DNA of 64,000 nucleotides from contig NZ_BMMZ01000003.1 of assembly GCF_014646195.1 (NCBI RefSeq), positions 124,001-188,000 of the forward strand, read 5' to 3'. Positions within the stretch are counted from its first letter, which is position 1; each line of letters opens with the position of its first letter. Of the stretch, positions 16,056 through 35,999 are shown one piece after another. Source of the DNA: Microlunatus endophyticus. Its GTDB lineage: Bacteria > Actinomycetota > Actinomycetes > Propionibacteriales > Propionibacteriaceae. The position numbers and the translations under genes were made by a program. Under the pieces are notes generated by a model, which did not search any database, had not been told where the DNA came from, and saw only the letters and a list, made by a program, of their open reading frames with translations.

Positions 16056-16358
16056 TCAGATCCGCTGGTCCGGATTCGGGCTACTGCCGCCGGCGACAGC
16101 CGGGATGATGGAGACCTGGGCGCCGTCGGGGACCTCGGCCTCCAGGCCGCCGATGAAGCGCACGTCATCGTCACCGACATAGACGTTGACGAACCGCCGC
16201 AGGGCACCGGTGTCGTCGAGCACCCTGGCCTTCAGCCCCGGATGATCCTGCTCCAGTGAGTCGATCAGCTCGGCGATGGTGCCGCCGTCGGCTTTGACCT
16301 CCTTCTCGCCACCGGTGTAGGTGCGCAGGATGGTCGGGATGCGTACGGATGCACTCAT
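16056..16358 (-). CDS. MoaD/ThiS-family sulfur-carrier protein with a C-terminal tail after Gly-Gly
   Basis: A 100-residue ubiquitin-fold protein. It starts VRIPTILRTYTGGEKEV and has DDTGALRRFVNVYVGDDD and PDGAQVSIIPAVAGG, closely matching the CysO/MoaD pattern. In working carriers the C-terminal Gly-Gly is adenylated and turned into a thiocarboxylate. Here Gly-Gly is followed by nine more residues (SSPNPDQRI), so a protease of the Mec/JAMM type would have to expose it. The gene starts two bases after the threonine-synthase-like stop codon and is certainly in the same riboswitch-controlled operon. This suggests it feeds sulfur to that PLP enzyme. The role is inferred; the fold is secure. Confidence 0.85.
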   Translation of the reverse strand: MSASVRIPTILRTYTGGEKEVKADGGTIAELIDSLEQDHPGLKARVLDDTGALRRFVNVYVGDDDVRFIGGLEAEVPDGAQVSIIPAVAGGSSPNPDQRI

Positions 16359-16360
16359 GA

Positions 16361-17638
16361 TCAGCTGTTGGCCTTCCAGAATTCCTCGAACGCGTCATAG
16401 CGCGGCTTGATCGTCGTCTTCGGTCCCACCTTGCCCGAGACGGCGTCGAGCGTCTTCAAACCGTCGCCAGAGTTGATGATCACGGTCTCGGCCGCAGGGT
16501 CGAGATCACCGTCGGCGATCAGCTTGGCGGTGACGCCGACGGTGACACCGCCGGCGGTCTCGCCGAAGATCCCCTCGGTACGCGCCAGCCGCAGGATGTT
16601 GGTCACCACGGTCTCGTCGTCGACGTCGGCGATCTTGCCGCCGGTCCGGCGAACCGTGTCCAGGACGTACGGGCCGTCGGCCGGGTTGCCGATCGCCAGC
16701 GACTTGGCGATCGTGTCCGGCTTGACCGGCCGCACCACGTCGTAGCCTTCGCGGTAGGCCTGGGCGACCGGCGAGCAACCGGTGGCCTGGGCGCCGAAGA
16801 TCTTGTACGGCTTGTCGTCGACCAGCCCGAGCTTGATCAACTCCCGGAATCCCTTGTCGATCTTGGTCAACTGGGAGCCGGACGCGACCGGGATCACGAC
16901 CTGGTCGGGCAGCCGCCAGCCGAGCTGTTCGGCGATCTCGAAGCCGAGGGTCTTGGAGCCTTCGGAGTAGTACGGACGGACATTGACGTTGACGAACGCC
17001 CAGCCCTCCTCCTCGCCGGCGATCTCGCTGGCGAGCTTGTTGACGTCGTCGTAGTTGCCCTCGATGGCGATCAGGGTGGTGTCGTAGATCGCCGAGGCGA
17101 TGATCTTCTGCTGTTCGAGATTGGAGGGCACCAGCACGACCGAGCGGATGCCGGCGCGGGCCGCTGCTGCTGCCACGGCGTTGGCCAGGTTGCCGGTCGA
17201 CGGGCAGGCCAGCACCTGCAGGCCGAGCTCGCGGGCGGCCGACAGGGCCACGGCGACGACCCGGTCCTTGAAGGAGTGCGTCGGGTTGCCGGAGTCGTCC
17301 TTGACCCACAGCTGCCGCAGACCGAGGTCATCGGCGAGGTTGCGCGCGTCGACCAGCCGGGTGAAACCGGGGTCGGTGGACCGGAAGCTCGCGATGTCGG
17401 CCGGCACCGGCAGCAGCGGCTGGTAGCGCCAGATGCTCTTCGGTCCGCGCTCGATCTCTTCGCGGGTGATCCGCGGATATTCGTAACCGACCTCGAGCGG
17501 GCCGAAGCATTCGACGCACGCGTAGAACGGGCCGAGCGGGCTCGTCGCGCCACATGCGCGGCAGACCAGGTGGGTTGCATTCCCGAACGCACCGGGGCGA
17601 CACCCTGCGGGAAGTTCGGTTTCAAGCGCCGTCGTCAC
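16361..17638 (-). CDS. Threonine-synthase-like PLP enzyme with zinc ribbon; candidate homocysteine synthase
   Basis: A 425-residue fold-type II PLP enzyme. An N-terminal zinc ribbon (CRACG ... CVEC, about residues 26-48) precedes the catalytic domain. The PLP lysine is in NPTHSFKDRVV, the phosphate loop in CPSTGNLANAVAAAA, and VIPVASGSQLTKI and FGETAGGVTVGVT follow. By family it converts O-phosphohomoserine to threonine. However, the leader is a SAM riboswitch and the next gene is a MoaD-like sulfur carrier, which fit homocysteine formation from O-phosphohomoserine better than threonine supply. I recall a related route (MetM) being reported in Streptomyces but could not check it. The GTG at 17636-17638 follows AAGGA (17649-17653); the ATG at 17657-17659 lies inside the riboswitch P1 stem and is less likely. 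Confidence 0.85.
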   Translation of the reverse strand: MTTALETELPAGCRPGAFGNATHLVCRACGATSPLGPFYACVECFGPLEVGYEYPRITREEIERGPKSIWRYQPLLPVPADIASFRSTDPGFTRLVDARNLADDLGLRQLWVKDDSGNPTHSFKDRVVAVALSAARELGLQVLACPSTGNLANAVAAAAARAGIRSVVLVPSNLEQQKIIASAIYDTTLIAIEGNYDDVNKLASEIAGEEEGWAFVNVNVRPYYSEGSKTLGFEIAEQLGWRLPDQVVIPVASGSQLTKIDKGFRELIKLGLVDDKPYKIFGAQATGCSPVAQAYREGYDVVRPVKPDTIAKSLAIGNPADGPYVLDTVRRTGGKIADVDDETVVTNILRLARTEGIFGETAGGVTVGVTAKLIADGDLDPAAETVIINSGDGLKTLDAVSGKVGPKTTIKPRYDAFEEFWKANS

Positions 17639-17648
17639 AGCGGGACCA

Positions 17649-17780
17649 TCCTTCATCATCTGTCTCGGACGACTTTCGTCCGGGTCGGAGTTGGCACCTT
17701 GTCTGTTCAGAACATTGCTTGATCTGAACAGCCGGTTGCCGGGGGGTCAGCGGGCCGGTCCCTCGCCCCCTCTTGATGAG
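17649..17780 (-). promoter_or_regulatory. SAM riboswitch (SAM-I/SAM-IV group)
   Basis: Read on the minus strand from 17780, the leader follows the S-box consensus. CTCATCAAGAG is the 5' P1/P2 region, then GAGGGACCGGCCC and CCGGCAACCGGC. An 8-bp P3 stem has arms CTGTTCAG and CTGAACAG. Then come AAGGTGCCAACTCC, a P4-like hairpin around GAAAG, and ACAGATGATGA closing P1. P1 pairs TCATCA (17774-17779) with TGATGA (17653-17658). Its 3' strand directly abuts the Shine-Dalgarno AAGGA (17649-17653). SAM binding should therefore lock P1 and block translation of the downstream operon. Confidence 0.93.
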
Positions 17781-17872
17781 CTGGGTCAAGACTACGGTCG
17801 CGGACCCACTCCACACCTAATCCCCGTCTCACATTTCGGGCATGATGCCCATATCCTGGGCAGCCGCGCCCG

Positions 17873-18817
17873 TCAGGAGGCGTTGTCGAGGACGTTGCGG
17901 ATCATCGCCAGCCGGTCGCGCCGGCGGGCCGGAAGACTGTGCCAGTAGTAGCTGAAGGTGCCGAGTGCGATCCCCAGCGCCCACGCCCGGCCGCGCAGCC
18001 AGGCGGCGTCGTCGACCTGCAGCCGTTGTCGGAAGACCTCACGAGCCGGCGGGTCGAACAACTCCCAGGCCCCGTGCAGGTCGACGGTCGGGTCCCCCAC
18101 CGAGACGGCGAAGTCGACGACCGCAGACAGCCGGCCGTCACCGACCAGGAGATTCTCCGCGACCAGATCACCGTGATACCAACGATCGGCGGCCACCGGG
18201 TGGGGTCCCGGATGGCCGGATCCCGGCAACTCCAGCGACTGCTCCCAGACCCGCTGGGCGTGATCCAGGTCGAGATCGATCTCCTCGTTGGCCCGGCAAT
18301 CGGCCAGATAGCTGCGTACCGACGGATCGAATTCGGCCAGCGACCGGCCGCGGTACCCCCGCAGCCGAGGATCGTGGACGGCCTGCTCGGTCAGTGGGGT
18401 GTCGCGCAGCGCCGTGATCACGGCGGCGAGATCTGCCGCCAGCCGGCTCCGCACCGGATCGGGCGGGTCTCCGGATTCGTACGCTCCCGGTCGATCACCG
18501 GGCAGCCAGCGCAGGATCGCCCACGTCTCCGGATAGCCGGACCCCGGACTGCCGATCGCGACGGTTTCGGGCAATGCGACCGGCAATCGGGTGCGAAAGG
18601 TGTCGGACCAGTGTCGTTCGGAGGCGATCGCCGCACCGGCCCCCGGCTGCAGCGGAAGGCGTACGACCAGATCGTCGCCCAGCCGGAAGAGCGTGTTGGT
18701 CGATCCGGAGAGATCGAGTTGCCGGAGCGGGAGTCCCGAGTAGTGCGGGAACTGGGTGTCGATCAGGGAGCGGACCAGCGCCTCGTCGATCGGCAGCTGA
18801 TCGTCGTGCAACTGCAC
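17873..18817 (-). CDS. Aminoglycoside-phosphotransferase-fold kinase
   Basis: A 314-residue protein of the APH/choline-kinase superfamily. STNTLFRLGDDLVVRLPL holds the nucleotide-binding strand and lysine-equivalent region, RWYHGDLVAENLLV is the Brenner catalytic loop (His-Gly-Asp ... Asn), and VVDFAVSVGDPTVDL is the metal-binding DFG-like motif. Members phosphorylate antibiotics, sugars or other small molecules. Without linkage to a resistance island this is more likely a metabolite kinase. The GTG start at 18815-18817 is preceded by GCAGGA. It follows the DUF3263 gene on the same strand with a 42-base gap and may be cotranscribed with it. Confidence 0.85.
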   Translation of the reverse strand: MQLHDDQLPIDEALVRSLIDTQFPHYSGLPLRQLDLSGSTNTLFRLGDDLVVRLPLQPGAGAAIASERHWSDTFRTRLPVALPETVAIGSPGSGYPETWAILRWLPGDRPGAYESGDPPDPVRSRLAADLAAVITALRDTPLTEQAVHDPRLRGYRGRSLAEFDPSVRSYLADCRANEEIDLDLDHAQRVWEQSLELPGSGHPGPHPVAADRWYHGDLVAENLLVGDGRLSAVVDFAVSVGDPTVDLHGAWELFDPPAREVFRQRLQVDDAAWLRGRAWALGIALGTFSYYWHSLPARRRDRLAMIRNVLDNAS

Positions 18818-23701: not shown

Positions 23702-23741
23702 GCGCCGGCGCGGTCGCAATTGCGGCCGGTCCTGCTCCCGG

Positions 23742-23814
23742 AGCCGCGTGGGAGAATCGAACTCCCGACATTCGATTTACAAGATCGACGCTCTGCCAAC
23801 TGAGCTAACGCGGC
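23742..23814 (-). tRNA. tRNA-Thr (anticodon UGU)
   Basis: A 73-base cloverleaf read on the minus strand. The acceptor arms are GCCGCGT/ACGCGGC, the D arm GCTCAGTTGGCAGAGC, the anticodon arm TCGAT-CTTGTAA-ATCGA with anticodon TGT, and the T arm GGGAG-TTCGATT-CTCCC, with discriminator T and no encoded CCA. It decodes ACA threonine codons. The gene lies downstream of the sulfotransferase gene on the same strand. Confidence 0.96.
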
Positions 23815-34656: not shown

Positions 34657-34907
34657 CCACCCGGCGGTTCGTGGTTGCGGAGCGTGCGGAGCAACCGCCC
34701 CGCAAGCCGGTCTGAGGAGGCGACCGGCCCGGGGTTCGGGGTCGCCCCCGAAAACTCGCAATTGGTGGTGCCAGGTCGCGGCAGCCGCAGGGAGTCGACC
34801 CGGGGGGTGGTAGTTGTCGCCGGGACGGCCGCATGGCATCCTTGGGCCACAGTTTCTATCCACTACGGATCGTCGGGCACGTACCTGCCCGTGGAAGGAA
34901 GTGCGGC
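34657..34907 (+). other. Intergenic region between sdaA and the ABC ATPase gene
   Basis: A weak 6-bp hairpin (GGTTGC 34673-34678 / GCAACC 34691-34696) and a 7-bp hairpin with a TCGC loop (34736-34753) follow sdaA and may end its transcript. The remainder should hold the ATPase promoter, but I cannot pick -35 and -10 boxes with confidence. Confidence 0.45.

Positions 34908-35999
<1,092 letters not shown>

Follow-up and report, generated by a model that had tools for sequence, protein, structure and literature searches.

A SAM riboswitch precedes a threonine synthase relative and a sulfur carrier in Microlunatus endophyticus: a probable methionine-supply operon

Why should a gene that resembles threonine synthase stand behind a riboswitch for S-adenosylmethionine (SAM)? 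The question is raised by a 64,000-nucleotide stretch of the Microlunatus endophyticus genome (contig NZ_BMMZ01000003.1, positions 124,001 to 188,000; the whole stretch is called the window here), in which an aptamer and two genes follow one another on the minus strand. The SAM-I aptamer (17653..17782) matches the full RF00162 model at 72.2 bits against a gathering score of 44.4 (cmscan, E 5.9e-15) and is the only RF00162 match in the genome (5.09 Mb searched at E 0.001). Behind it lie metM (16361..17638), which encodes a threonine-synthase-like pyridoxal phosphate (PLP) enzyme of 425 amino acids counted from a GTG start, and, two bases further on, metO (16056..16358), which encodes a sulfur carrier of the ThiS/MoaD/CysO type with 100 amino acids (PF02597, E 1.7e-15). 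A first-pass annotation had described a near-consensus SAM riboswitch and a MoaD/ThiS-like gene two bases downstream of the enzyme gene, and both are borne out by these profiles. We consider it very probable that metM-metO is a SAM-repressed methionine-supply operon that makes homocysteine from O-phosphohomoserine and the sulfur of thiocarboxylated MetO (MetO-COSH); judged from sequence, the unit is probably switched off by SAM, and the threonine synthase relative most likely makes homocysteine with carrier sulfur.

The leader is arranged as a translational switch might be. The Shine-Dalgarno sequence AAGGA (17649..17653, minus strand) shares its first base with the final base of the aptamer match and so touches the 3′ strand of helix P1, as the first-pass annotation had it, and the GTG at 17638 sits ten bases past AAGGA. 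We place the start of metM at this GTG because the first ATG (17659), considered and rejected as a start, lies inside the aptamer match and has an in-frame stop in the closest relative, a Propionibacteriaceae MAG that is 84% identical (L027). The riboswitch was present in 40/40 loci scanned from a set of 80, and across 41 leaders (our own and 40 of the 80) a Shine-Dalgarno core, scored as GGAG, GAGG, AAGG, AGGA or GGGA, begins 0-4 nt past the GATG that belongs to the 3′ strand of P1 in every leader, a raw count taken without control windows. Upstream of P1 lies a −10-like box, TAGTCT (17789..17794, minus strand); its pattern TANNNT, picked after the leaders had been read, occurs no more than 14 nt before P1 in 29 of the 41 leaders, whereas each of seven control windows placed still further from P1 on the upstream side has it in 1-2 of 41. 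From the position of this box, transcription would begin at or just before the P1 5′ strand; a scan of the leader for complete sigma-70 promoter pairs gave none. A terminator-type expression platform was sought and set aside, as no terminator-like site was found in 17600-17900. The minimum-energy fold pairs the CAGC before P1 with a GCUG overlapping the GTG start and holds the GGA of the Shine-Dalgarno sequence in a small hairpin, which is a hint only, with z at −1.9, 8/200 shuffles folding equally well and a fold frequency of 0.0008. The simplest reading of this anatomy is a compact switch in which transcription would begin at P1 and the helix, once stabilised by SAM, would crowd the ribosome site.

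We surveyed the pairing of riboswitch and metM in 197 genomes drawn evenly from the class, our own included, and counted MetM in 136 of them, a SAM riboswitch in 140 and a full-length metX in 112. MetM was counted at 360 bits or more, with the dropped matches at or below 228 bits and 33-38% identical. In 134/136 genomes metM is preceded by a riboswitch of the same orientation no more than 1,500 nt away (median distance 40 nt, largest 890), a pairing far beyond chance; in the two misses only MetM residues 161-424 and 171-424 were matched. In one genome counted as lacking both MetM and metX (G076), the end of a contig truncates MetM, so at least 137/197 genomes have the enzyme. The possibility that the riboswitch is a general regulator of methionine genes was considered and rejected; of 145 riboswitch matches, 11 do not precede a counted MetM. 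Two of these 11 (the second match of G074 and that of G076) precede contig-cut MetM pieces and two (G033 C10 and G084 C33) stand at contig ends; in the other seven, the longest open reading frame behind the match has no similarity to MetM. Among the loci read individually, L188, L193 and L195 carry a SAM riboswitch before what reads like a peroxiredoxin-like open reading frame and two ABC-transporter ATPase-like open reading frames.

The carrier gene is nearly as constant a neighbour: metO adjoins metM downstream in 101 of 110 loci, counted over two sets of 80 and 30 (ours in the 30) that may repeat species. Together with the survey, this shows that the metM-metO system is common across the class, beyond Streptomyces. 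The adjacency also bears on the alternative that sulfide, not MetO, donates the sulfur in the cell and that the carrier serves something else, a reading that can overlap the other alternatives weighed below. It draws support from the nine loci in which metO does not adjoin metM (L039, L077, L086, L099, L100, L146, L152, L158 and L162), seven of which have, by our reading of the sequence, a groEL or cold-shock gene in its place; in these loci CysO or a distant metO perhaps serves MetM. We regard it as unlikely, given the two-base spacing here, the adjacency elsewhere and the presence of MoeZ, a ThiF and rhodanese protein encoded on contig C6 of the same genome (PRK07878, 696 bits, cutoff 647).

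Among solved structures, MetO is nearest to 4n6e, a ThiS/MoaD protein (E 8e-31); next comes 3dwg (E 2.1e-25), a structure with the label cfp10A that we take to be CysO of Mycobacterium tuberculosis. A Gly-Gly pair is present near the C terminus, and nine residues follow it, SSPNPDQRI (codons at 16059..16085, minus strand). Such a tail is unusual: among 101 complete MetO sequences including our own, 79 end exactly at the diglycine and 22 carry further residues, namely C in 16, AR in two, A, CA and ADG in one each, and SSPNPDQRI, the longest of all. ADG belongs to the nearest relative, and our genome's own CysO ends in SR. For MoeZ to activate a carrier, its C-terminal glycine must be free, as in ThiS, MoaD and CysO chemistry, and the nine residues past the diglycine therefore imply cleavage of the tail before thiocarboxylation. 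The only match to the JAMM family PF14464 in the genome (E 0.01) adjoins cysO, and this single JAMM protease perhaps makes the cut. We would go further only tentatively: MetO may be a pro-carrier whose tail blocks the diglycine, with one JAMM protease maturing both MetO and CysO and so gating the flow of sulfur into cysteine and methionine, an idea we hold slightly less likely to be right than wrong. A limited literature search found no paper on MetO tails among the matches listed.

MetM belongs to the threonine synthase family and stands apart within it. It matches PALP (PF00291, E 8.4e-66) and exceeds the curated cutoff of the threonine synthase model TIGR00260 (268 bits, cutoff 167); it falls below the cutoff of PRK08197 (278 bits, cutoff 303) and far below that of the cysteine synthase family TIGR01136 (36 bits, cutoff 344). 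The four cysteines of its zinc ribbon, a feature that the first-pass annotation had named, are invariant in 34/34 aligned homologs. The closest solved enzymes by sequence are threonine synthases (165 bits vs 46 for a CysM), and no solved structure closer to MetM was found. The 135 other MetM homologs of the class sample are 60-74% identical to the Microlunatus enzyme, and in a tree of 23 rows MetM (11 rows) and ThrC (9 rows) fall on separate sides of a branch with support 97/99, the position of two paralogs and CysM being unsure because of long branches. MetM is a threonine synthase homolog distinct from the genome's own ThrC.

The first-pass annotation had proposed aligning the active site with those of MetM and true threonine synthases. 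We compared 13 ThrC (12 loci and the structure 1uim) with 139 MetM including our own, 125 of them distinct, after leaving out homologs that were at most 55% identical, incomplete or at most 380 amino acids long. The PLP lysine K124 is kept in 125/125, within a motif, SFKD, common to MetM and ThrC. Four residues constant in all 13 ThrC are replaced in 125/125 distinct MetM (T88 to L151, S155 to N219, R160 to Y224 and N188 to S253, from 1uim numbering to that of our protein from GTG), with a one-residue insertion in the alignment near S155. Four further ThrC-constant positions change just as uniformly: G64 to V127, M65 to V128, N157 to R221 and A194 to K259. The residues T88, S155, R160 and N188 are presumably the substrate-phosphate contacts of Thermus ThrC. 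The phosphate that ThrC sets free presumably assists in adding water at the beta carbon. One would expect a rebuilt phosphate pocket in an enzyme that has to let phosphate go and bring sulfur to the gamma carbon, although the changes could also signal another substrate.

The pocket is one of several observations that weigh against a second threonine synthase, whose SAM-tied expression would control the branch point between threonine and methionine. In plants, SAM acts as an activator of threonine synthase. The TIGR00260 match over its cutoff speaks for this alternative, as does a cyanobacterial relative active as a threonine synthase in vitro, according to the available portion of PMC12172450. 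We nonetheless think it very unlikely. A TIGR00260 search of the genome finds five places: metM, CysM, a canonical thrC (C2:556088-557236, 294 bits) and two threonine-synthase-like paralogs below the cutoff (C1:251488-252423, with 622 bits to PRK08197, and C8:187038-187922). The canonical thrC adjoins the homoserine kinase gene thrB (C2:555261-556061, 208.8 bits, cutoff 168), and the genome's sole SAM riboswitch is not there, so the second, riboswitch-free threonine synthase for which the annotation had proposed a search does exist. A canonical ThrC was found in 133 of the 136 MetM genomes too, and the three misses (G083, G130 and G160) are genomes that are 70, 86 and 68% complete. The residues invariant in ThrC are uniformly replaced in MetM, and a second threonine synthase would leave unexplained both the adjoining sulfur carrier and the missing metX, metA and MetY. 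As a separate observation on the window, the only tRNA that ARAGORN found in it is a tRNA-Thr (anticodon TGT, 23740-23814, minus strand).

Several genes of a conventional route to methionine were looked for in our genome. We found no metX match at E 0.001, in a search that gave matches in 188/197 genomes, and no metA match (PF04204) at E 0.01. PF01053 has two strong matches, one barely over its cutoff (28.9 vs 27 bits) and four below; neither strong enzyme reaches the MetY cutoff. One is a cystathionine gamma-synthase (PRK07811, 647 bits, cutoff 513) and the other resembles PRK07582 (317 bits, cutoff 440). With no maker of acyl-homoserine found, the PRK07811 enzyme may run in the direction of a cystathionine lyase. 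Of the genes that the annotation wished to see checked, metX has no match and metY none over the MetY cutoff, and an enzyme of the cystathionine gamma-synthase type is present. The genome does not, in its gene content, combine a sole threonine synthase with a full conventional pathway, the genomic combination that would have counted against the annotation's reading.

Across the class, the absence of metX goes with the presence of MetM. A full-length metX is missing from 77/136 MetM genomes vs 8/61 others (Fisher p 4e-9, ignoring kinship): 77 genomes, ours among them, have MetM without metX, 59 have both, 53 have metX only and eight have neither. The threshold for counting MetX was set at 313 bits, as the curated 500 is reached in none of the 197 genomes or 14 controls; genomes with metX fragments (G172, G093 and G119, at 145, 92 and 56 bits) and those with relatives of 148-164 bits (G136, G053 and G019) were counted as without MetX, and these make up six of the 77. 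That MetM instead acts on O-acylhomoserine or O-acetylserine, in the manner of CysM and served by a separate carrier, is highly improbable: MetO is CysO-like and the presumed phosphate contacts of ThrC are replaced, but our genome has no metX or metA match, a JAMM-cysO-cysM cluster already stands elsewhere in it (C4:3207-4561, from profile searches), the closest solved enzymes are threonine synthases, and O-phospho-l-homoserine stands in the title of the paper by Hasebe et al. (doi 10.1128/aem.01247-24).

The homocysteine synthase reading of metM-metO is supported, as far as sequence tells, by the separate thrC-thrB pair, by MoeZ, by the missing metX, metA and MetY, and by the riboswitch in 134/136 genomes. 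With anatomy, genome context, conservation and residue replacement observed, and with homology and the literature as guides to the chemistry, to the source of the sulfur, to the sense in which SAM regulates and to the trimming of the tail, we propose the following course. MetO would lose its nine-residue tail, probably to the JAMM protease whose gene lies with cysO-cysM, and MoeZ would adenylate MetO at its C-terminal diglycine and convert it to the thiocarboxylate. MetM would bind O-phosphohomoserine made by ThrB, eliminate phosphate and receive on the gamma carbon the sulfur that MetO-COSH carries. This would yield carrier-bound or free homocysteine, a source of methionine and then of SAM. 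Plentiful SAM would stabilise the P1 helix, which touches the Shine-Dalgarno sequence, and so block translation of metM and, with it, metO.

Some observations count against this proposal. Many genomes would have another route besides, as 59 of the 136 keep metX too; metO does not stand beside metM in nine of the 110 loci; our genome keeps the cystathionine gamma-synthase-type enzyme; and a cyanobacterial homolog is reported to make threonine (PMC12172450, in the portion available). The 77 of 136 genomes without a full-length metX suggest that homocysteine can be formed with no acylation of homoserine in many members of this actinobacterial class. In the NCBIfam release searched, MetM scores as a threonine synthase over the curated TIGR00260 cutoff, and we suggest a re-annotation rule that combines the riboswitch, the carrier and the signatures STGNL and NVNVRPYY. 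The family may furthermore serve as a natural experiment in how a threonine synthase turns into a homocysteine synthase through the rebuilding of its pocket. Elsewhere in the window, an msiK RNA (RF01747, 57.2 bits, 34848-34906, plus strand) lies at the 5′ end of an open reading frame (34833-35999) that reads like a sugar ABC-transporter ATPase, whose true start probably lies after the RNA.

Known systems share parts of this design. Our literature search found no paper combining a SAM riboswitch, a threonine synthase and MoaD; on the tandem riboswitches of Bacillota, the available part of PMC12452182 assigns thrC to T-boxes alone, and hom1 in part to SAM riboswitches. With canonical ThrC, MetM shares its family, the SFKD motif of the PLP lysine and probably its substrate; unlike ThrC, it forms a group of its own (97/99), has the pocket residues replaced in 125/125 and comes with riboswitch and carrier. 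CysO feeds a fold-type-II PLP enzyme, and CysO-CysM makes cysteine from O-phosphoserine. The M. tuberculosis CysO-CysM-Mec system resembles ours in its carrier, which is of the same family as MetO, and differs in that it makes cysteine, for which our genome has its separate cluster; mycobacterial CysO is sulfurated by MoeZR (PMC3227635, as far as the available text goes). Closest is MetM/MetO of Streptomyces, a route already known since 2024: the accessible part of PMC12172450 credits Hasebe et al. 2024, cited above for its title, with identifying MetM in Streptomyces, so the MetM-type route named by the annotation is real. It describes S. albulus MetM as preventing methionine auxotrophy, mentions the carrier gene metO and implies a SAM riboswitch before metM. 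It also reports that the cyanobacterial homolog, of 51.6% identity and lacking a riboswitch, both produced and deaminated threonine in vitro, and that in cells its behaviour was not fully that of MetM. The Microlunatus locus shares with S. albulus the threonine-synthase-like enzyme, the neighbouring carrier gene and the upstream SAM riboswitch; it differs in probably belonging to another order, the nearest relatives of its MetM being Propionibacteriales, and in the nine residues that follow the diglycine of its MetO. What our analysis adds to the known route is a profile across the class, a signature of the pocket, the compact design of the leader and the unusual tail of the carrier.
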